Below, piece by piece: positions 1 to 7,474 of a stretch of DNA of 7,474 nt. The DNA is from Acidobacteriaceae bacterium. Its GTDB lineage: Bacteria > Acidobacteriota > Terriglobia > Terriglobales > Acidobacteriaceae. Numbering within the stretch: the first letter of the stretch is position 1; every line of letters begins with the position of its first letter. The notes under the pieces are model-generated. The model was not told where the DNA came from. It ran no database searches and saw only the letters and a list, made by a program, of their open reading frames with translations. A program made the translations under genes and the position numbers. Where the stretch lies: assembly GCA_030042915.1 (NCBI GenBank), contig JASHYS010000340.1:1-7474 (forward strand), read 5' to 3'.

Positions 1-494
1 ATGCCGCGCCCATCGTAACCGCCGCGGCCGATTTTGACGAACACGTCACCGCCCAACGCAGCCACGGTCTCGCGCAGTTCCGCTTCGCTGCTCACAACGC
101 CGAACGGGCCCACAGGAAATCCACTTTCCGCGAGCCAGGTCTTTTGCAGCGTTTTGTCCTGGATAATGCGCACCGGCTCGACGCCCGGGCGCAGCGGCGC
201 CAAGGCCGCCACTTCGCGCAACGCGTCAACGCCGATCTGCTCAATCTCCAGAGTCACGGCGTCGGCTCCCGCAGCCAGCCGGCGCGCGGCGTCCACATCG
301 TCCCAGCGGCCTACGATTGTCTCGTCCGCAACGAAGCTTGCCGGGCAGGCGGGTTCCGGATCCATCACGCGTACGCGATAGCCCATGGTGCGCGCGGCCA
401 TTGCGGTCATGCGGCCCAATTGCCCTCCGCCGAGTATGGCGAGCAAACCGCCGGGCTTAATTCTTTCTGGTTTTGGAGAAGAGGCTGCGCTCAC
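1..494 (-). CDS. purK: N5-carboxyaminoimidazole ribonucleotide synthase (PurK), N-terminal part, cut by the window edge
   Basis: PurK is a cytosolic ATP-grasp enzyme that makes N5-CAIR from AIR, bicarbonate and ATP in de novo purine synthesis; PurE then isomerises the product. The visible 164 codons start with GTG at 494-492. They contain the N-terminal nucleotide-binding glycine loop [14 protein letters not shown] (about residues 16-29), followed by [17 protein letters not shown], the segment [16 protein letters not shown], the [13 protein letters not shown] segment, and near the edge [12 protein letters not shown], the ATP-grasp loop typical of PurK. All agree with the family in order and spacing. 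The C-terminal half of the ATP-grasp domain lies outside the window. The GTG start overlaps the purE TGA stop in a four-base GTGA, so the two genes are probably translationally coupled. I see no frameshift in the visible part. Confidence 0.95.
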
Positions 495-994
495 TTCGGC
501 GAATCCTCGCCCAGTTTCTGATCGAGCACTTCCTGGGTGCGCGCCGCGCGCCACGCGGCAAGGCGCTCGTAGAGAGCAGCATCGGTCGCGGCCAGGATTT
601 CGGCAGCCAGCAGAGCAGCGTTGGCCGCGCCGGCTTTTCCAATCGCCAATGTTCCCACGGGAACGCCTTTTGGCATCTGCACAATCGAGAGCAGCGAATC
701 GAGGCCGTCGAGCTGCGTTGCCGGCACAGGCACGCCAAGCACGGGAACCAGCGTCTTGGCGGCTAACATGCCGGGCAAATGCGCTGCGCCGCCGGCTCCG
801 GCGATAATTGCCCGCAGGCCTCGCTCGCGGGCGGTCTCAGCATATTTGAAAAGCCAGTCCGGCGTGCGATGCGCGCTCACAATGCGCGCCTCGTGCGGAA
901 TCGCAAGCGCGCGCAGAATTTCCACGGCTGCCGACAGCACTTCGTAGTCGCTCTTGCTGCCCATCACCACGCCCACAAGCGGTTGCTGGCTCAT
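491..994 (-). CDS. purE: N5-carboxyaminoimidazole ribonucleotide mutase (PurE, class I)
   Basis: PurE converts N5-CAIR to CAIR in purine synthesis and acts downstream of PurK. The 167-residue product has the usual length for a bacterial class I enzyme. It carries the phosphate-binding MGSKSD (residues 11-16), SAHRTPD (40-46) and [12 protein letters not shown] (65-76, with the conserved His72), followed by LGVPV (86-90) and [14 protein letters not shown]. The reading frame stays open upstream to 1174, but homology begins at [16 protein letters not shown], so I place the start at the ATG at 994-992. The upstream extension would overlap the 75-residue gene and looks like noncoding translation. 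No good Shine-Dalgarno precedes the ATG; instead TATAAT lies six bases in front of it. The gene forms an operon with purK. Confidence 0.97.
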
Positions 995-1028: not shown

Positions 1029-1256
1029 TTAGCGCCGATACCACGCCTGCACTGCCACCTCGATGGCCGCGAATAGAACGCTGATGGCGGCAAGAAAGCC
1101 TTTGGCGCGCTGCCAGTTCTGCTCATGGCGATCCATGCGCCGCTCCAGTTCAGCCAGGCGTCCGCCGTTGCCATCGCCCATCAGGCTGGCCATCTGCGAC
1201 TTCAACACACTCAAGTCGCCGATCACCTGGGCTTCGAATTCGTTCATCATGCGCAT
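1029..1256 (-). CDS. Small coiled-coil plus membrane-segment protein, holin-associated (XhlA-like) candidate
   Basis: This 75-residue product has a charged N-terminal half, a GDGNGG turn (residues 28-33), a heptad-like helix [18 protein letters not shown] (33-50) and one hydrophobic segment, [20 protein letters not shown] (about 53-72), ending in Arg-Arg. This layout (coiled coil, then a C-terminal membrane helix) occurs in small phage proteins encoded near tail-tip or lysis genes, such as the XhlA group. The family placement is inferred from architecture, not from a firm motif. TTG at 1262 could extend the frame, but the Shine-Dalgarno GGAG at 1265-1268 is eight bases from the ATG at 1256, so I prefer that start. 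The ribosome site overlaps the end of the 772-residue hub gene, implying coupled translation. No endolysin gene follows it. Confidence 0.7.
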
Positions 1257-1264
1257 TCGCAAAA

Positions 1265-1270
1265 CTCCTA
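1265..1270 (-). promoter_or_regulatory. Ribosome binding site overlapping the hub stop codon
   Basis: The coding strand reads TAGGAG. Its first three bases are the TAG stop of the 772-residue gene, and AGGAG is a strong Shine-Dalgarno. It lies eight bases from the ATG at 1256, but only two from the TTG at 1262, which decides the start of the small membrane protein. Confidence 0.75.
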
Positions 1271-3586
1271 GGACCCGCCGCTCAGCGACAAGTTGATGAA
1301 CAAGGCCGTTGAGAACTCCGAATAGTTCGGCGGCGAGGAACCGTCATACATCCGGATGTAGAACCGGTCGCTCGCCGACACGCGCGAGAAGGTCAGGTTC
1401 TGCTCCGAGCCGCGCAGCACCAGCGTCGGATCCTCGCCGGGCATAAAGGCAAAATCTCGCAGACGAATCTCGAAGCCCCCACCTGTGGGTGGATTGATGC
1501 CGGTATTCACGGTCACCGTGCTGCCGTTCAGTGCCGTCACTGAAAGGCTCGTCAGGTTGGCCAGCACTGTCAGGTTCGCCGTCGCCGGTAGCCAGCAGTT
1601 CGCCGGCACGGTCGCGCTGGTCTTAATTGCTAAGTCATCTGCCCAATCGTTGGCAAAGCCGATATCATACCCCACTAAGTCGGGGTAACTCGGGCGATAG
1701 GTCACTTTTACAGCGCGAACCACGACCTGCGTATTTAACTTAGTCGACGGCGCATTAAGGAGCAGAGCGTCGCCAGGCCAAACATCGGAGGCGAAGCTGG
1801 TGCGGTTCCCTTTGTAAGTGCCGCTCCATAGCGCGCTCGCGCTCGCCGCCGCCTGCTCGATGGCCAGCGCGGCGTTGCGGCAATCCGCTGAGCTCCGCGC
1901 CGGCGGGCTGCTGACGGTTCCAATCCAAGCGGCCACCGCCGGCCAACCCGCCTGGGCAAGCGCCTGCTGGCTGGCGGTGTTCACCGCCCGGCCCACGGCG
2001 CGGCCAACAGTACGGTAGTTCACGGCGATCTGCTCCCCGATGGCCGGCGCGCAGCCGGTATAGAAAACAACCTCTCCGGTGCGCTCCAGATGACATTGGG
2101 CCGACTCGGCCGCACTACCGATGCGCCGCGTGTAGGCGCCTCCATTCGCTGGAGTGCTTACCACCCAGCCTGACCCCAAATTCTTCAGGTTCACGGCGCG
2201 CATGGTGCCAACTAAATTAATGCTGCTGGCCGCAACTGCCATGCAGGTTCCGGGCAGGTTGGCGAGCCCGCCATCGTAGAGAGTTACGGGCGTAGCGCCC
2301 ACGCCGCTCACAAACTCCTGGATTTCCATCTGAATCCTGGCCGAAGCCAGAATCGACTCGCCGCCTGTAGTGATCAGCCCGTTGTCGCCAAATGAGTAAT
2401 AGAGCGACTGCGCGCGCTGGCACTCGGGGCAATGGACGCGAACTCGCAGCGTGTACTGGTTAGCTGGGTTGACCGCGAAGGTCGCACCCGCCGGCGACCC
2501 TTGAACCATCGGTTGCAAGGTCAGCGCTCCGGTCCCCGCCTGCGCCGTAACCTGAAAGCCGGCTGTGCAATCGGCCGCCGTCTCAGAACCGGTAAAGAAG
2601 CCCGCCACAATCCCCGTACTTCCCGCTGACAAAGTCACGCCAACCGCTTCCAGCAGCAGCGTTCCACCCATCTCGATGGGATCGAGCCAGGTAAGCAGGG
2701 TCTGGCCATCAATGCCGTTGCCGCCGTTCATCGCCAGCCCGTTGGGACCTAGGCTGAAGGCGCCCGGCCCGGCAGCAACGCTCCATGCCGTCTCGTTGAT
2801 CTGGCTCTCGTTGAAGAACTCGCTGATGAGTGTGAATTGCGAGGTGGGCGGAAAGTAAGGATCGAAGGCCAGATCGAACTGCGTGGTCGCTCCGTCGCCC
2901 AGAAAATATTCAGTGACATAAGCCGCCGGCTCATTCTCGCCGCAAACGGTCACATCGTTAGCCAGCGCACGCTTCACGCTGGCCGTGAACGCCAGACCAG
3001 CCAGATCGAGACTTCCATCACTCTCGTTCAGCGGGTGCACAGTGCACGGGACCGTGGTGAGCGTCAACTCTCCATCGAGCGCGCGATATGCGGCACGGGC
3101 CATTCCCGCGGCCTGCCCGGCGCGTTCGCTCCAGTTGGCGTCCGCGGCAGGCGAAAAGTTGTTCACCTGAGTATTGGCCAGACTCTGCACGGCAAGCGCG
3201 TCTGCGCCGGACTCCGCAATCAGCAATGCCAGAATCTGGGCGGCCGGCAAGTTGGTCGAACTCGCGCTGGGGGGCATCAGAAGCTGATCCAACAGCCACT
3301 CGTCGCTCACCGCTTGAATCGCGGTGCGGTAACGCGGTCCTTCGAGGCCGAGCCCCGAGTACTCCGGCAGCGGAGTCACCGCAATGTAGCCGGTGAAATA
3401 GACGGTGCCGTCATCGCCAATCACCTGGAGCGTCTGCACTCGGCTGGGCGCCGCCAGGCTCCCGTTCGTCGGCAGGCTCAACCACAATTGGCAAATGGAT
3501 GGCTCATTCATCTTGCGCTCGATCGTCAATGGGCGCACGGCATCGAGCGCCGCCGTGTAGTCCTGGCCCTGAATTGTGATCTTCAT
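1268..3586 (-). CDS. Phage tail hub / tail-tip protein with an apparent inserted beta-rich domain
   Basis: The 772-residue product begins MKITIQGQDYTAALD and runs through WLSLPTNG and GDDGTVYFTGYIAV (about 57-70), a pattern seen at the start of tail hub and tail-tip proteins that form closed beta barrels. A Tyr/Phe- and Gly-rich segment follows (about 225-465), beginning YFLGDGATTQFDLAF; it looks like a concanavalin- or LamG-type beta sandwich and includes a CPEC pair (386-389). The hub-like sequence seems to resume with IGEQIAVNYRTVGRAVGRAVN (about 517-537) and DVWPGDALLLN (601-611). The last 110 residues, FEIRLRDFAFMPGEDP onward, look like a small Ig/FN3-like domain. No signal peptide, membrane segment, peptidase or lysozyme motif is visible. 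The gene follows the tail-tube candidate and is probably the receptor-proximal tail part. General role is likely; domain names are inferred from sequence texture. Confidence 0.65.
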   Translation of the reverse strand: MKITIQGQDYTAALDAVRPLTIERKMNEPSICQLWLSLPTNGSLAAPSRVQTLQVIGDDGTVYFTGYIAVTPLPEYSGLGLEGPRYRTAIQAVSDEWLLDQLLMPPSASSTNLPAAQILALLIAESGADALAVQSLANTQVNNFSPAADANWSERAGQAAGMARAAYRALDGELTLTTVPCTVHPLNESDGSLDLAGLAFTASVKRALANDVTVCGENEPAAYVTEYFLGDGATTQFDLAFDPYFPPTSQFTLISEFFNESQINETAWSVAAGPGAFSLGPNGLAMNGGNGIDGQTLLTWLDPIEMGGTLLLEAVGVTLSAGSTGIVAGFFTGSETAADCTAGFQVTAQAGTGALTLQPMVQGSPAGATFAVNPANQYTLRVRVHCPECQRAQSLYYSFGDNGLITTGGESILASARIQMEIQEFVSGVGATPVTLYDGGLANLPGTCMAVAASSINLVGTMRAVNLKNLGSGWVVSTPANGGAYTRRIGSAAESAQCHLERTGEVVFYTGCAPAIGEQIAVNYRTVGRAVGRAVNTASQQALAQAGWPAVAAWIGTVSSPPARSSADCRNAALAIEQAAASASALWSGTYKGNRTSFASDVWPGDALLLNAPSTKLNTQVVVRAVKVTYRPSYPDLVGYDIGFANDWADDLAIKTSATVPANCWLPATANLTVLANLTSLSVTALNGSTVTVNTGINPPTGGGFEIRLRDFAFMPGEDPTLVLRGSEQNLTFSRVSASDRFYIRMYDGSSPPNYSEFSTALFINLSLSGGS

Positions 3587-3590
3587 CGCT

Positions 3591-3632
3591 CCACTAACTC
3601 CACTAACTCCGCTAACTTAGCTAACTCCGCTA
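3591..3632 (-). repeat. 9-base tandem repeat, five units, in the tube-hub junction
   Basis: On the plus strand CTAACT recurs at 3594, 3603, 3612 and 3621, and a fifth, partial unit (CTA) begins at 3630; the full unit is CTAACTCCR. On the coding strand each unit reads roughly AGTTAGYGG. Because nine is a multiple of three, the tail-tube stop codon TAG (3632-3630) is followed in frame by four more TAG codons at 3623, 3614, 3605 and 3596. Three units also give GGAG, a Shine-Dalgarno-like word, and another GGAG lies directly before the hub ATG at 3586. The array fills the whole gap between the two genes. Confidence 0.9.
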
Positions 3633-4604
3633 CACCAACGCATTGGGCGCGGGAATAAAGCTCCGGTAACAGACAACTCTTTCTCCGTCCAGTGCGTCCG
3701 TCACCGGCAACGCCATGAATTGCCCTCTCAGCAACACGCGCGATTGGCCGTTCTGATTCTTTCCGTTGAGTGCAGCAACAGTTTCTTCAGCACCCATTGC
3801 CGGCTGTAATCGCGGATAGTAAAAAAAGATTCTTTCTCCCTGGCTGCCTTGCATTACAAACAACGCTGACCACTCCTGGTAAAAGCTGCCGCCTTCGCGG
3901 TCCACGAAGCCCGTCACTTCCTGCAGCTTTGCGCCCGCTGCCGGTGCGCCTCCGGGCAGCGGTTCGGCGAGCACCAGCCCGCTTGCTGTAACCTGGGCCA
4001 CCAGCGCCACGTTGAAAGTGATTCGACGGATGTAATCCACGTCCGACAGAGGCTGTCGCACATACGCGCTTGCAACCGGGCAACCCACATAGCCCGTCTG
4101 CCCCGTGTAATCCACATCCACCGCAATGATCGAACCTGCCGCGAACGTCGCTGCATCTGAGCTATTCAACAGGATCGATGTGCTGGTCGACCCGCTCTGC
4201 GGAATCACCGCCGTCGCAGCCTGCGCCCCATCCGCCGCCGGCCCAGCACCACTCGCCGCGGCCAGCACATTCATGTGCTGCGAGCCCGTCGCCAGCGCCA
4301 TGGTCAACTTCGTCCAACTCATGAACTGGAGACTTACCTGCGCCTGAAGGGTTTCGCGCACCTGCTCCAGGGGAGCGGCGGGAATGCCCGTCAACAGCGG
4401 CGCCGACTTGCTTGCCGGCTTGCGCACGAAATCCTGAATCCAGCCCAGGTCGATCCACGGCGCCGGCGGAGCGTCAAGACTGAATCCGCCCTGCTGCGAC
4501 GGATCGAAAAGCGCGGGCGTTTGCGTGGAGCGGTTCACCGGCGCAAAGTACGCACGCACGCGCCGCGCTACCGGCGCCGGCGCTGAAAACCAAGTTGATG
4601 ACAT
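3630..4604 (-). CDS. Putative phage major tail (tail-tube) protein
   Basis: The 324-residue product carries APWIDLGWIQDFVRK (48-62), then LEQVRETLQAQVSLQF (79-94) and WTKLTMALATGSQHMN (97-112). This layout, a 'label of the tail-tube' start followed by a beta strand and a short helix, recalls tail-tube subunits of long-tailed phages. The rest is beta-rich, and the C-terminal part (VDREGGSFYQEWSALFVMQG, then LRGQFMALPVTDAL) fits a capsid- or tube-like sheet. The frame is open upstream to 4811, but the ATG at 4604 has AGAGG (4613-4617) eight bases away and starts the plausible sequence MSSTWFSAPAP. Its place between the terminator candidate and the hub fits a tail tube. At 324 residues it is longer than many tube proteins, so an extra domain or another tail role is possible. 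Confidence 0.55.
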   Translation of the reverse strand: MSSTWFSAPAPVARRVRAYFAPVNRSTQTPALFDPSQQGGFSLDAPPAPWIDLGWIQDFVRKPASKSAPLLTGIPAAPLEQVRETLQAQVSLQFMSWTKLTMALATGSQHMNVLAAASGAGPAADGAQAATAVIPQSGSTSTSILLNSSDAATFAAGSIIAVDVDYTGQTGYVGCPVASAYVRQPLSDVDYIRRITFNVALVAQVTASGLVLAEPLPGGAPAAGAKLQEVTGFVDREGGSFYQEWSALFVMQGSQGERIFFYYPRLQPAMGAEETVAALNGKNQNGQSRVLLRGQFMALPVTDALDGERVVCYRSFIPAPNALV

Positions 4605-4612
4605 TGACTCAA

Positions 4613-4617
4613 CCTCT
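4613..4617 (-). promoter_or_regulatory. Ribosome binding site fixing the tail-tube start
   Basis: AGAGG on the coding strand sits eight bases in front of the ATG at 4604. It supports this internal start over the upstream one at 4811, which would run through the repeat-bearing gap and into the neighbouring gene. Confidence 0.7.
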
Positions 4618-4629
4618 GAATGGCATTTG

Positions 4630-4703
4630 TTTGTGGTCAGTTCACAGTTCGTGTTCGCCGAGAAAATCACCCGCACCACAAATTGCAGTGACTGTGAACT
4701 GAC
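4630..4703. repeat. Two overlapping inverted repeats with heptamer words in the terminator-tube junction
   Basis: GTCAGTTCACAGT at 4636-4648 is matched perfectly by its reverse complement at 4691-4703, a 13-base inverted repeat with a 42-base loop. A second, 8-base inverted repeat joins TTTGTGGT (4630-4637) with ACCACAAA (4675-4682). The two share bases 4636-4637, so they cannot form fully at once. The left arm also shows 7-base periodic words, TGGTCAG, TTCACAG and TTCGTGT, starting at 4634. A single TAATCCC heptamer at 4718-4724 lies just behind the upstream gene's stop. Confidence 0.85.
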
Positions 4704-4728
4704 GCCGTTTCCTGTTCTAATCCCTGCC

Positions 4729-5214
4729 TCACTCCCCCTGCTCCTGATAGCTGTACACAACCACGCTCGCGCTACGGCTGAGCCTGTCGCGATTGATCGT
4801 GATCGGCCCAAACACAGCTTCGTCCCAAAAGACCTGCGTAAGCATTGCGGCCGGAGGCGTGGCCGTGTAATTGAACTTGGGCGCGCAGAACGGCTGCAAC
4901 ATGGCCAGCAGTTCTTCGTCCATCTCGCTCAACGCCCGTCCGCGGTCCAATCCCCCAAAGCTCTGCGTTCCACACGTCTGGTAAATCACTTCGCATTGCT
5001 CAACCGCCATGGTCGATGCCAGATCCATATCCGCAGCCATGCCCAACCAGCGCAATACAAATACATCGTTCGGAAGTTGGCTGAAGGGAGCTTCCGCTTC
5101 CTCCACCAGGATTCCTGGGCGCACCGCGCCGCGGATCAAAATCGTTCGCTCCGGATTGATCGTGGTCAGCCGCGTGCGCAGCGCCATATAAAACGAATCT
5201 TTCGCATTCTGCAT
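4729..5214 (-). CDS. Putative tail terminator / tail-completion protein
   Basis: The 161-residue product starts MQNAKDSFYMALRTRL, an N-terminal helix of the kind seen in tail-terminator and neck proteins. The central part, FVLRWLGMAADMDL (52-65), is followed by the helix RGRALSEMDEELLAML (91-106), and it ends in a beta strand LSRSASVVVYSYQE (145-158). This order, a helix-rich middle with 'R-R-x-x-x-x-x-D-x-L' and a final strand before a short acidic tail, resembles small terminator proteins that cap the tail tube. The gene's place directly before the tail-tube candidate supports this. A GTG at 5220 is also possible, but GAGAG lies eight bases from the ATG at 5214, so I prefer the ATG. No decisive motif was recognised; a head-completion role is the alternative. 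Confidence 0.55.
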   Translation of the reverse strand: MQNAKDSFYMALRTRLTTINPERTILIRGAVRPGILVEEAEAPFSQLPNDVFVLRWLGMAADMDLASTMAVEQCEVIYQTCGTQSFGGLDRGRALSEMDEELLAMLQPFCAPKFNYTATPPAAMLTQVFWDEAVFGPITINRDRLSRSASVVVYSYQEQGE

Positions 5215-5229
5215 GTTCACTGCTCTCTG

Positions 5230-5297
5230 TTCGTAGTTCTCAGTTCGCAGTTCATAGTTCCGCCCCGTGCTGCGAACCGTGAAATAAGAACTGTGAA
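5230..5297. repeat. Heptamer array arranged as four direct plus four inverted units
   Basis: From 5230 to 5257 four 7-base units follow one another, each TTC-N-N-A-G (TTCGTAG, TTCTCAG, TTCGCAG, TTCATAG). After a 12-base centre, 5270-5297 holds four units of inverted sense, mostly CTGYGAA-like (CTGCGAA, CCGTGAA, ATAAGAA, CTGTGAA). The arms pair imperfectly, about 20 of 28 positions in the symmetric register by my hand count, and other registers exist because the units are similar. The array fills almost the whole gap between the 144- and 161-residue genes. Confidence 0.85.
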
Positions 5298-5300
5298 TTG

Positions 5301-5735
5301 CTAAACGGCTTGCTGCCTTGCCTCACGCATCAGCAGCCGGTAGAGATACACCTGGCCAAAGGCCTCGTTGGCGGCAATCGACTCGATCAGATAGTCCTGC
5401 CCAGCCACAGTTACTGCCAGCGTCATGGCAAAGAGCGCTTGCGCCGTGACCAGGTCCAGCGCGTTTACCTGTTGCTCAACGCTTGTGGCTGATACCAGAA
5501 GCTCCCACTTCGATTCGCCGCCTTCCTGCCAAGTGGGCCGCAGCTTGCGCAGCAGCACCGGGCTCACGGGCACATCGCCAAAGGTTGTTGCCACCAGCCC
5601 TACTTCCATCTGGCTGGTATCCGTATTTGCACCCGTCACCCGCAGAAGAGCCGTAGTTCCCCCCACGCCGCGCAGAAGGGCATCGGCCAGCCTGCGCGAC
5701 GCTCCGGTCGGGTTGCGCGGCGCCGTATCGCTCAT
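5301..5735 (-). CDS. Putative head-closure (stopper) or neck protein
   Basis: The 144-residue product starts MSDTAPRNPTGASRRLADAL and contains LLRGVGGTTALLR (20-32), a beta-rich middle and a C-terminal stretch DYLIESIAANEAFGQVYLYRLLMREAR (split around 114-140). The last part, a 'Y-x-I-x-S-I' strand, a turn and a final strand ending in Leu-Arg, recalls head-tail adaptors and stoppers of the SPP1 gp16 type. This is a weak resemblance by pattern only. Its position after the head-tail connector and before the terminator candidate is where a stopper gene normally lies. The ATG at 5735 is preceded by an AGAGAG-rich ribosome site six bases away. I see no membrane segment or signal peptide. Confidence 0.5.
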   Translation of the reverse strand: MSDTAPRNPTGASRRLADALLRGVGGTTALLRVTGANTDTSQMEVGLVATTFGDVPVSPVLLRKLRPTWQEGGESKWELLVSATSVEQQVNALDLVTAQALFAMTLAVTVAGQDYLIESIAANEAFGQVYLYRLLMREARQQAV

Positions 5736-5791
5736 AAATCGCTCTCTCTTCCCTCGAACAATCGGGATCCCGTGTAAGATCTGGGTTTTCG

Positions 5792-5812
5792 TTCGCAGTT
5801 CACAGTGATCAG
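5792..5812 (+). repeat. Short TTCNCAG heptamer run in the connector-stopper junction
   Basis: Three successive 7-base units, TTCGCAG, TTCACAG and TGATCAG, occur here. The first two equal units of the arrays at 5230-5297 and 4634-4654. A small inverted repeat, CTCGAT (5832-5837) and ATCGAG (5848-5853) with a 10-base loop, lies further along in the same gap. Confidence 0.75.
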
Positions 5813-5860
5813 TGCTCGCTCATCTGCGATTCTCGATTCCAACACGCATCGAGCGCTTTC

Positions 5861-5888
5861 TAATCCCTGGTCCCTAATCCCTAATCCC
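5861..5888 (+). repeat. TAATCCC heptamer tandem array, four units
   Basis: Four exact-phase 7-base units stand at 5861, 5868, 5875 and 5882: TAATCCC, TGGTCCC, TAATCCC, TAATCCC. On the coding strand these read (N)NAGGGA-like and start eight bases behind the connector stop codon. The 160-base gap 5736-5895 that holds this array contains no gene I can support; besides the repeats it has a perfect palindrome CGGGATCCCG at 5763-5772. Confidence 0.9.
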
Positions 5889-5895
5889 TGCTTCT

Positions 5896-6519
5896 TCATC
5901 CCAGCCTTGCCGCAACGTACGGATTCAGCCAGGCCTGCACCGTCTCGTCAATCAGCGAGCTGGAAAAGTACTTCATCTGCATGGTGTCGATCCTGCTCAT
6001 GCTGGCGTTCAGCGCCGGTGTCGCTTGCGCATTGCGCACAATCTGCGCGCACGCCGACTTCACGTCATCGCCGATCGTCGCCAGGCCGGCTGTGTACGTC
6101 ACCTGCACCTCGTTATAGGGCAGGCCAAAAACATTCCACGGCAATGTCAGCTCGCCGGTGTTCGGGTCGAAATCTACCAGTGTGGGATCGATCCCCGTCC
6201 ATTGCCCCGGCAATGCGAACGCCCACGCGATCTCGAACAGCGGCTCGTTCAGCATCTCGCCGCGCCGCGGTTTCGCATAGCGTCCCTGCAGGCTCACAAT
6301 CGCCGAGGTCGCCGGCGCGAGCGGCGCCAGAGGCAGATAGCTCAGCAACACGGTGCGGGCGCCGGCCACCACGCGCAGGCGCTCGGTGTACTGAATGACG
6401 TTCAGGTCGGGCCGCCCGCAGTAGCTGTTGATCAGCGCCGTCGCAGCCGTAATCCAGTCCGCCGTCGTCCCCGCCGGCAATCCGTAATTCGGATAATCCG
6501 TTGGCTCCAGATATGCCAT
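5896..6519 (-). CDS. Phage head-tail connector (phiE125 gp8-like adaptor)
   Basis: Connector proteins of this type bind below the portal and form the upper neck ring. The 207-residue product has the typical N-terminal helix DWITAATALINSYCGRP (21-37), a beta segment YTERLRVVAGARTVLLSYLPL (split 44-64), DFDPNTGELTLPW (117-128) and the characteristic strand VQVTYTAGL (138-146), followed by a helix DDVKSACAQIVRN (151-163) and a C-terminal region with SLIDETVQAWLNPYVAAR. The VTYTAG strand followed by a helix is the best family mark, and the length agrees. The ATG at 6519 is preceded by AAAGGAAG (6525-6532) at a normal distance. The gene lies directly after the capsid gene, as expected. Confidence 0.75.
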   Translation of the reverse strand: MAYLEPTDYPNYGLPAGTTADWITAATALINSYCGRPDLNVIQYTERLRVVAGARTVLLSYLPLAPLAPATSAIVSLQGRYAKPRRGEMLNEPLFEIAWAFALPGQWTGIDPTLVDFDPNTGELTLPWNVFGLPYNEVQVTYTAGLATIGDDVKSACAQIVRNAQATPALNASMSRIDTMQMKYFSSSLIDETVQAWLNPYVAARLG

Positions 6520-6539
6520 TGAAGCTTCCTTTCAAATGA

Positions 6540-6627
6540 AGGGACCGGGGGCGCAGAGACATCGGGACTAGCCCGCAAATCACTATCACCGGCTTCTAGT
6601 CCCTCAGTCCCTGGTCCCTCCGTCCCT
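6540..6627. repeat. GTCCCT repeat array with nested inverted repeats behind the capsid gene
   Basis: GTCCCT occurs at 6599, 6607, 6614 and 6622 (spacings 8, 7 and 8). GGGACTAG (6564-6571) is the exact reverse complement of CTAGTCCC (6596-6603), and AGGGACC (6540-6546) that of GGTCCCT (6613-6619), so the two stems nest. The 24-base loop and the bases between the stems show nothing else. No run of T follows on the coding strand, so it is not a standard intrinsic terminator. It may affect the end or stability of the capsid mRNA. Confidence 0.8.
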
Positions 6628-6636
6628 GCCGTCTTC

Positions 6637-7474
6637 CTACCGCTCGACCATCACTTGGGTGTGAGCGAAACTCGCACCCTTCACCACCGGAGCGCCGAAC
6701 TTGACCGCGACATACTGGTAGGTCAACGAGTTCGGCAGCCCGAGCTGGAAGATGCGCGGTGTCGGATCGCCCAGCCAGTGATACTCGATCAGATCCTCGG
6801 TCACGATGTACGCCGGATAGGTGCCGGGGTTGTAGCTGGCGCCTGATCCGGTGCCCGGAGTGTAGGGCAGGCTCCAATCCGGAATCAGCGGCAGGTCGCC
6901 GGCTTGCGTCGACAGCATCTTCACCCTGAAGCCGCCGGTGATCTGGTCGGTGTTCAGAACCACGTTGTAGTCGGTCTTCATCTCCTGGTCGATCAGGTCC
7001 AGCAGCACCGGGTTGGCGTAGATCGCCGTGGGCCGCACATGGTAGCCGGTGTTGGCCACCATCTGCGCGATCGTGGTCTTCATGGTGTCCACGATCTTCA
7101 TTGAGGTGGTGACGGTCACCGAGTTGCCGCCCGTCGCGATCTGCGCCGCGCAGCCCATGTATTGTGTGGTCGTGGGCGAGGCCAGGCTGGTGTCGTTACC
7201 CTGCCACAGGGCCACGTCGTGCGCCACCATTACGCCGCTCACCGTATCCACCAGGTCCTTGGCCTGCAAATACGCAAACTGCTTTTGCTGGTCGCCCAAT
7301 TCGATATCGAACAGGTTGTAGTTGATCTGCGCCACAATCGCTTTCAGCGGCACGCTCAGTTCGGTGCGCGACGGGCTCACCGTCGCGGGGCTGATGCTGC
7401 GCGGATTCACAAATCCCGCCGTGCCCGGATTGGGAATGGCCGTCTCTTCAAAGAACCGCGACGGATGTCCGGTT
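6637..7474 (-). CDS. Phage major capsid protein (HK97-fold type), C-terminal part, cut by the window edge
   Basis: The frame is open from the right edge to the TAG at 6639-6637, giving 278 visible residues. The internal GTG at 7410 is not the start, since the coding sequence continues upstream as SRFFEETAIPNPGTAGF. Visible parts fit an HK97-fold capsid subunit: an extended N-terminal stretch VNPRSISPATVSPSRTELSV, a helix-rich segment with DQQKQFAYLQAKDLVDTVSG and MVAHDVALWQG, a central region RPTAIYANPVLLDLIDQEM typical of the 'aiyanp' core strand and helix, and a C-terminal FGAPVVKGASFAHTQVMVER strand pair. The assignment rests on pattern and on its place before the connector gene. The N-terminal part (and any scaffold or protease gene) lies beyond the window. 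Confidence 0.7.
   Translation of the reverse strand, partial: TGHPSRFFEETAIPNPGTAGFVNPRSISPATVSPSRTELSVPLKAIVAQINYNLFDIELGDQQKQFAYLQAKDLVDTVSGVMVAHDVALWQGNDTSLASPTTTQYMGCAAQIATGGNSVTVTTSMKIVDTMKTTIAQMVANTGYHVRPTAIYANPVLLDLIDQEMKTDYNVVLNTDQITGGFRVKMLSTQAGDLPLIPDWSLPYTPGTGSGASYNPGTYPAYIVTEDLIEYHWLGDPTPRIFQLGLPNSLTYQYVAVKFGAPVVKGASFAHTQVMVER

Follow-up and report, generated by a model that had tools for sequence, protein, structure and literature searches.

Among cyanobacteria, the short tandemly repeated repetitive (STRR) sequences and the heptanucleotide hairpins of the Nostoc tRNA-Leu intron comprise several degenerate heptamer words and heptamer-armed hairpins. Heptamers are over-represented in bacterial spacers and have been described as G-rich intergenic repeats (GGGAATC, GGGGA(C/T)T) in Xanthomonas campestris, Xanthomonas citri, and Nostoc, with their origin, the reason for a unit of seven bases, and their function left open in that paper (PMC4692102); heptanucleotides of Calothrix are mentioned as well. 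Here, we analyzed a stretch of 7,474 nt from an Acidobacteriaceae bacterium (contig JASHYS010000340.1; the whole stretch is hereafter called the window), in which short-period and inverted repeats occupy five gaps between the genes of a phage-derived head-and-tail cluster. Among open-licence PubMed Central (PMC) papers, we found no description of heptamer repeats in Acidobacteria. We favor, with modest confidence, the reading that host-type heptamer-array spacers have been laid into a phage-derived cluster that is probably kept like a host locus.

Repeats and hairpins in the five gaps of the window

The gaps measure 43, 124, 86, 160, and 117 nt, as the original prediction—made from the letters of the window alone—had correctly stated; the third is 86 nt long when counted from the conserved ATG of a 161-aa gene and 80 nt when counted from an upstream GTG. 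All five gaps had been said to contain tandem words, which were sorted into families A (AGGGA on the coding strand), B (TTCNCAG), and C (a period-9 word), and these words indeed lie at the positions claimed. In both gaps that hold A and B, A comes first after the stop codon and B second, again as claimed. We compared each gap with 1000 dinucleotide shuffles for a tandem score (period 5–12) and an inverted-repeat score; the resulting ten tests are uncorrected, and 7/1000 counts as weak. Tandem structure went beyond chance in gap 1 (3587–3629; 0/1000 shuffles as high), gap 3 (5215–5300; 2/1000), and gap 4 (5736–5895; 0/1000), was marginal in gap 5 (6520–6636; 55/1000), and was absent beyond chance from gap 2 (4605–4728; 224/1000), leaving the earlier claim standing for three gaps of the five. 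A separate, earlier shuffle run agrees with the tandem test. Inverted repeats were as strong in 0/1000 shuffles of gaps 3 and 5 and in 7/1000 of gap 2. Gap 3 is the sole window gap significant for both scores, and all five gaps differ from their shuffles by tandem or inverted structure, gap 2 weakly. The period is 7 in gaps 3 and 4 and 9 in gap 1; in gap 5, the best period is 8. The repeat features are as follows.

3589..3626, minus strand: gap 1 period-9 array (GGAGTTAGY on the coding strand) between the 324-aa and 772-aa genes; 4.9 copies by Tandem Repeats Finder (TRF); 0/1000
4636..4648, minus strand: gap 2 3′ arm of a 13-bp perfect inverted repeat, ACTGTGAACTGAC, identical with family B; 7/1000
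4691..4703, minus strand: gap 2 5′ arm, GTCAGTTCACAGT, missed by the original prediction; shuffle test
4717..4728, minus strand: gap 2 lone A-type unit, GGCAGGGATTAG, directly 3′ of the stop codon; from the sequence
5224..5250, minus strand: gap 3 3′ arm with B-type words, CTGCGAACTGAGAACTACGAACAGAGA; 0/1000
5270..5296, minus strand: gap 3 5′ arm, TCACAGTTCTTATTTCACGGTTCGCAG; 0/1000
5235..5260, minus strand: gap 3 period-7 tandem array; 2/1000, TRF
5864..5889, minus strand: gap 4 period-7 A array with four GGG tracts, adjoining the stop codon of the adaptor gene; 0/1000; G-quadruplex motif at 5865–5888
5792..5812, minus strand: gap 4 B-type words; from the sequence
6596..6627, minus strand: gap 5 5′ arm, AGGGACGGAGGGACCAGGGACTGAGGGACTAG, directly 3′ of the putative capsid gene; inverted 0/1000; fold z −3.6; G-quadruplex motif at 6601–6626
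6540..6571, minus strand: gap 5 3′ arm, CTAGTCCCGATGTCTCTGCGCCCCCGGTCCCT; shuffle test

In gap 3, the B words stand opposite their own complement, and in gap 5 the coding strand reads AGGGACGGAGGGACCAGGGACTGAGGGACTAG soon 3′ of the stop codon, followed by CTAGTCCC...GGTCCCT near the end of the gap. Given these inverted repeats, several of the words listed previously are hairpin arms; words A and B often make up two arms of hairpins. These arms, like the quadruplex motif of family A, had been missed. Rfam returned two sub-threshold microRNA matches only, which we took as chance.

Long spacers between genes that abut in sister loci

We searched genome contigs for relatives of the capsid-like protein of the cluster; 190 were obtained, the best 80 of which were used as loci (L010–L089). 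The titles of these best 80 name Acidobacteria, Acidobacteriota, Acidobacteriaceae, Acidobacteriales, Terriglobia, or individual genera, and the genera so named we take to be acidobacterial. In a midpoint-rooted tree built on a concatenation of four cluster proteins, L010, L011, and L012 form a clade with the window (support 0.944), which L013–L015 join with a support of 0.849. Between the head-tail adaptor gene and the 144-aa gene, the spacer measures 160 nt in the window and 102, 164, and 116 nt in L010, L011, and L012, versus 3 nt in L013–L015; between the 161-aa and 324-aa genes, it measures 124 nt in the window, 128 nt in L010, and 198 nt in L011, versus 0 in L013–L015, the L012 contig ending before this junction. 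Many further loci likewise have 3 nt at the former and approximately 0 nt at the latter junction. Protein ends are alike in both groups (RLG* then MSDTA; QEQGE* then MSSTW). By parsimony, 102–198 nt would thus have been inserted between intact genes at these two junctions, and the suggestion of a process that seeds words in spacers gains support from this contrast between sister loci.

At the 144/161-aa junction, which varies widely among loci, L013–L015 have 17 nt versus 86 (or 80) nt in the window. Long spacers at both the adaptor/144-aa and 161/324-aa junctions also occur in L020, L022, and L023, the clade-mate L017 having 3 and 48 nt; L025 has a long spacer at the 161/324-aa junction, and L075 and L084 have shorter ones of 59–81 nt. 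The notion of fixed families A, B, and C did not survive the comparison, as the nearest relatives, L010–L012, carry partly other words at the same junctions.

Period-7 arrays in related loci and genomes

From the window and the 80 genome loci, we collected 658 spacers of 40–600 nt and compared each with 50 shuffles. Every shuffle was beaten by the tandem score in 131 spacers, by the inverted-arm score in 149, and by both in 69, where ~13 are expected per single test; arrays are thus commoner than in shuffled spacers. The period was 7 in 104 of the 131 tandem-significant spacers, and in 56 of 70 within a 229-spacer subset of the same loci. Although two of the five window gaps fall short of clear tandem significance, these counts refute chance or composition across the related loci, and we accord that explanation next to no probability.

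The words vary by spacer and genome (AGGGACT, CAGGTTT, AGCTAGA, CAGTGAT, CAGTTCAC, and others). Arrays most often have approximately four units (50 of 159 period-7 arrays, the locus set and the stretch survey described below being pooled), with unit counts that are approximate insofar as array ends are set by a score rule and the score threshold disfavors short arrays. Reverse-complement 7-mers of an array occurred at 34.9/kb in the rest of its own spacer, compared with 9.6/kb in the remaining array spacers of that locus and 2.4/kb for a reversed control, and at least one such 7-mer was present in 66 of 117 array spacers (period 6–8).

Outside the cluster loci, a survey of genome stretches found period-7 arrays in 10 of 219 spacers of a family draw, 6 of 127 of a class draw, 6 of 107 of a phylum draw, and none of 16 in 50 kb of E. 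coli. Six of the ten array spacers of the family draw stem from one genome (G007) chosen for its many matches, leaving 4 of 131 without it. In 19 further stretches picked for matches, which were counted apart in the survey, 36 of 215 spacers held period-7 arrays; these stretches enter the pooled unit-number and G-quadruplex counts and, minus L090 and L091, the second set of hairpin mismatches below. In stretches drawn regardless of matches, arrays are rarer than in the cluster loci, yet present. The exact word GGGATTAGGGATTAGGGA occurs in 2 of 60 family genomes and is therefore not conserved, a rarity that led us to use a word-free period test. GTCAGTGGTCAGTG was found in 13 of 61 genomes of the class draw and 12 of 99 of the phylum draw (G001 and some others being in both draws), with a reversed control that was nearly empty except in G162 and had few matches in three class and two phylum genomes. 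A four-tract GGGANNA array is present in 28 of 199 phylum genomes, a count without a control, as the reversed pattern nearly equals the pattern itself. On the L166 stretch of genome G162, from the phylum draw, we observed nearly perfect arrays of more than 100 nt made of 7-base AGTCAGT and 8-base CAGGGTGA units.

The arrays of the cluster recur elsewhere in related genomes. CAGGTTTCAGG has 41 copies in the L010 genome versus one for its reversed control. The 5′ A array of window gap 4 matches at 18 places in four of six related genomes, at best with 35/35 identical bases; the rest of this gap gave zero matches in the six. Likewise, of the L010 gap at the 161/324-aa junction, array parts alone match elsewhere, at 14 places in three of six genomes besides its own place. 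As the matches cover array parts only, it is array modules that are common to the genomes, and not whole inserts. These recurrences, together with the arrays across related-locus spacers, uphold the host derivation that the original prediction had entertained, and as one part of the favored explanation we lean toward regarding the window arrays as intergenic heptamer spacers of acidobacterial host type.

The same data bear on a mobile hairpin element—a miniature inverted-repeat transposable element (MITE), or a repetitive extragenic palindrome (REP) with its transposase—inserted whole into the junctions. Such an element would account for net insertion with intact coding ends and for array modules shared at many places; however, the matches elsewhere span 24–41 nt of array and in no case an entire insert of 128 or 160 nt, and words differ between the junctions of one locus. 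We dropped this reading, which we rate as very improbable, after the two inserts tested proved to be without a full-length copy in six genomes.

Mismatches in the hairpin stems

Stems kept as RNA should hold more G-U than A-C mismatches on the transcribed strand, whereas a DNA-level process should leave no bias; stems were aligned by Watson-Crick scoring only, fold z values refer to spacers of 40–400 nt, and arm counts to spacers of 40–600 nt. In the gap after the putative capsid gene, G-U outnumbered A-C mismatches by 161:64 in 85 spacers (composition predicts 55% G-U; p 8e-7, a value that is too small, as the loci are mutually related), and 46 hairpins had more G-U versus nine with more A-C, a sign count equally affected by this relatedness. 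The bias was present with tandem arrays (51:27) and without them (37:11), and 75 of 81 spacers folded better than their shuffles, with z below −2. The hairpin after the putative capsid gene thus carries an RNA-level signal. Outside the capsid gap, array hairpins had G-U to A-C ratios of 70:74 (61 spacers) and, in the stretch survey—which for this purpose includes six stretches from the L010 genome as well as match-picked ones—of 50:44 (33 spacers); these strand-symmetric mismatches suggest a DNA-level origin.

A different explanation holds that the spacers are selected RNA elements, each hairpin having been fixed for tuning the expression of its flanking genes, like attenuators or mRNA-stabilizing hairpins, with periodicity as a by-product. 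This would fit the strong G-U bias after the capsid gene, the 36:14 ratio of non-array hairpins elsewhere, and the distribution of arms, which occur in 9 of 89 spacers between divergent genes but more often between codirectional (118 of 488) or convergent ones (22 of 81). It would not fit the unbiased array hairpins outside the capsid gap, nor the adaptor/144-aa and 161/324-aa junctions, which have no spacer in most related loci, nor the 144/161-aa junction, where only 11 of 53 spacers have a fold z below −2. We therefore regard selected RNA elements as a rather unlikely general account.

The capsid hairpin may act by stabilization or by partial termination. A ribosome-binding-like motif precedes the next start in 72 of 76 cases, a count without a control.

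G-quadruplex motifs of family A

The window contains two four-tract G-quadruplex motifs (5865–5888 and 6601–6626), both on the coding strand and close after stop codons, and none on the opposite strand. The codirectional spacers of the locus set and the stretch survey hold 31 motifs on the coding strand, with a median distance of 7 nt from the preceding stop, and 14 on the template strand, whose median distance to the following start is 23 nt. Going by the motif, the predicted quadruplex unit GGGANTN belongs to family A of gaps 4 and 5, and not to B or C.

Family A might hence be kept because its four GGG tracts fold on the coding strand after the stop, and a matching placement is described for Xanthomonas and Nostoc, although the authors were unable to assign a regulatory role there (PMC4692102). 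Yet AGCTAGA, CAGTGAT, CCTGAAA, and TTCNCAG words have no G tracts and share the same period and layout, so that a quadruplex cannot be the general cause; as an explanation of the arrays, we find it improbable.

A phage-derived cluster in Acidobacteriaceae

The genes of the window, called by a simple open reading frame rule without a gene finder, are listed below.

3..482, minus strand: purK, a host gene cut by the window (PF22660, E 7.2e-25)
491..994, minus strand: purE, a host gene (PF00731, E 2.7e-60)
1029..1262, minus strand: 77-aa gene with a hydrophobic stretch near the C-terminus, possibly holin-like; syntenic in related loci
1268..3586, minus strand: 772-aa putative tail gene; syntenic, role from position only
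3630..4604, minus strand: 324-aa cluster gene; syntenic
4729..5214, minus strand: 161-aa cluster gene; syntenic, conserved start MQNAKDS
5301..5735, minus strand: 144-aa cluster gene; syntenic
5896..6519, minus strand: head-tail adaptor gene (phrog_442, E 5.5e-17)
6637..7473, minus strand: putative major capsid gene with its 5′ end outside the window; synteny and weak phrog_264 matches of relatives

Profile searches (PHROG and Pfam-type libraries) gave no family match for the 77-aa, 772-aa, 324-aa, and 144-aa genes. Pfam, NCBIfam, and PDB sequence searches with the putative capsid protein gave zero matches, and every name given to its relatives among the 120 matches listed is 'hypothetical protein'. 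Two longer relatives of the capsid gene match the major head protein family phrog_264 weakly (E 0.0014 and 0.0053) and a third does not, which is why we call the capsid putative.

Upstream of the capsid-like gene, a portal gene is present in 72 of the 80 loci and a terminase gene in 43, one more locus (L089) having the terminase downstream; 55 loci extend more than 6.5 kb upstream. The terminase can be adjacent to the cluster, as in L046 (L046:3529-5094). Also upstream of the capsid-like gene, 48 of 80 loci have a HipA-like kinase gene (e.g., L046:5146-6015), and the order is the same, with the HipA-like gene between terminase and portal, in 43 of the 43 loci that have all three. A terminase relative was found in eight of ten genomes, once in each, and in five of them (L011, L015, L018, L019, and L025) the 10 kb preceding the capsid-like gene do not contain it; the L012 and L014 loci are too short to place it, and none was found in the L010 and L013 genomes, which are possibly incomplete.

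Of 100 family genomes, 61 have the capsid-like gene, in one copy each; it was not found in the other 39, some of which are possibly incomplete. Downstream, purE lies within 9 kb in 38 of the 59 loci that are long enough and does not in 21. Distances between capsid-like proteins correlate weakly with those between PurE proteins (Spearman 0.28; 9 of 999 permutations as high), and close pairs differ mainly at third codon positions, where lengths allowed a count. Nine 'viral' contigs of IMG/VR (L001–L009) carry the same capsid-like gene, and some of these may in fact be pieces of host chromosome classed as viral by mistake. A phage-like contig that aligns to a region of an Acidobacteriaceae genome has been suggested to represent a degraded prophage (PMC12142844).

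More than the repeats, it is the cluster—phage-like, single-copy where found, and in a soil phylum—that was the main surprise. It resembles the gene transfer agents of Rhodobacter and Caulobacter, whose structural cluster is single-copy with the terminase apart in some lineages. Unlike gene transfer agents, for which particles, a regulator, and transfer are known, the acidobacterial cluster is known from genes alone; it could be a candidate gene transfer agent or another domesticated phage structure. No gene transfer agent of Acidobacteriota was described among the literature matches listed.

A proposed origin of the spacers

The arrays are mostly of period 7, with drifting words and most commonly about four units, and often face a matching inverted array, making them hairpin-capable. 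Under the explanation that we favor, in which host-type heptamer spacers were laid into the cluster, arrays would arise and spread at the DNA level as short arrays are copied or undergo slippage, and template switches across the hairpin as it forms would keep the arms complementary while the word changes. The hairpin of the capsid gap would then have been kept as an RNA element, protecting a 3′ end or terminating transcription in part, and would raise capsid output over that of downstream genes, whereas array hairpins at other junctions would mostly be tolerated and not needed. Support for this RNA role is partial. In Acidobacterium capsulatum, indels are reported to make up more than 26% of all mutations (PMC8717266), a figure that does not come from these arrays and that by analogy would fit an indel-driven origin.

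Several observations weigh against this explanation. Inverted arms do not reach significance in gaps 1 and 4 (412/1000 and 788/1000 shuffles as high), and the gene calls are crude. Gain, and not loss, of spacers is a matter of parsimony given the midpoint-rooted tree, and the kinship of the loci inflates the mismatch statistics. Cluster spacers are richer in period 7 than the surrounding DNA (57 of 243 versus 17 of 178; codirectional spacers, capsid gap excluded), which is unexplained and makes the cluster no passive sample of host spacers. Among 50 indels between close relatives (13 pairs; only spacers more than 60% identical, less alike ones being dropped), one was of 7 nt, so that there is no 7-nt excess and no sign of recent slippage; the expansion of words that the original prediction had also entertained is not supported as something that now proceeds in steps of seven bases. 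Non-array hairpins outside the capsid gap lean toward G-U (34 spacers, p 0.022 for the 36:14 given above; 47:30 in the stretch survey, 35 spacers, p 0.21), and RNA-level selection is therefore not confined to the capsid gap: some non-array hairpins may carry such a signal too. Finally, the capsid gap does not as a rule show the stem and T run of an intrinsic terminator, since at least five T in the next 8 nt follow only a minority of hairpins, although more than by chance (12 of 76; 1.3% of random 8-mers expected), and four T in 8 nt follow the stem in the window.

In its boldest form, which we put forward tentatively and hold to be possible at most, the proposal would read as follows: an ancient single-copy head-and-tail cluster of phage origin in Acidobacteriaceae, frequently next to purE and perhaps a working gene transfer agent, is being reshaped by a host process that opens abutting junctions and installs hairpin spacers with both arms shifting words together, and at the capsid gene this process, acting on DNA, would have supplied an RNA hairpin now maintained by selection.

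Comparison with known heptamer and hairpin systems

REP palindromes are operon-internal hairpins with a possible role in mRNA stabilization (PMC3733652), in which they resemble the spacers described here. Unlike REP, the acidobacterial spacers have no conserved sequence or ends and their arms are tandem arrays; nor did the two inserts have the full-length copies elsewhere in six genomes that mark a REP or MITE. The TAACTGA heptamers of Beggiatoaceae, a range of Cyanobacteria, and some Bacteroidetes are likewise intergenic, direct, and spread over many genome places (PMC4679880). A likeness to other bacterial heptamers, raised in the original prediction for cyanobacteria, holds as one of architecture: the STRRs can be likened to the acidobacterial arrays by their build. 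A plasmid search with a simple-repeat query returned nothing, an outcome that its filter makes likely.

The closest match is with the repeats of Xanthomonas and Nostoc, which share the intergenic heptamer unit, a preference for four units, underrepresentation between divergent genes, placement of the G-rich strand (coding near the end of an open reading frame, or the other strand before one), inverted stem-loop pairs, and a sequence and length that vary between close species (PMC4692102). Of these, the seven-base unit, the four-unit preference, the G-strand placement, and the inverted pairs all recur here. Unlike those repeats, the acidobacterial arrays include many non-G words of the same architecture, differ in their words at homologous junctions of near relatives, and form whole spacers between genes that abut in sister loci. 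With such tight-junction sister loci as controls, homologous junctions make the origin and the effect of the arrays directly testable. The acidobacterial arrays are real, of host type, and belong to the known heptamer kind; new relative to it are their matched, drifting arms and their apparent insertion into abutting junctions.

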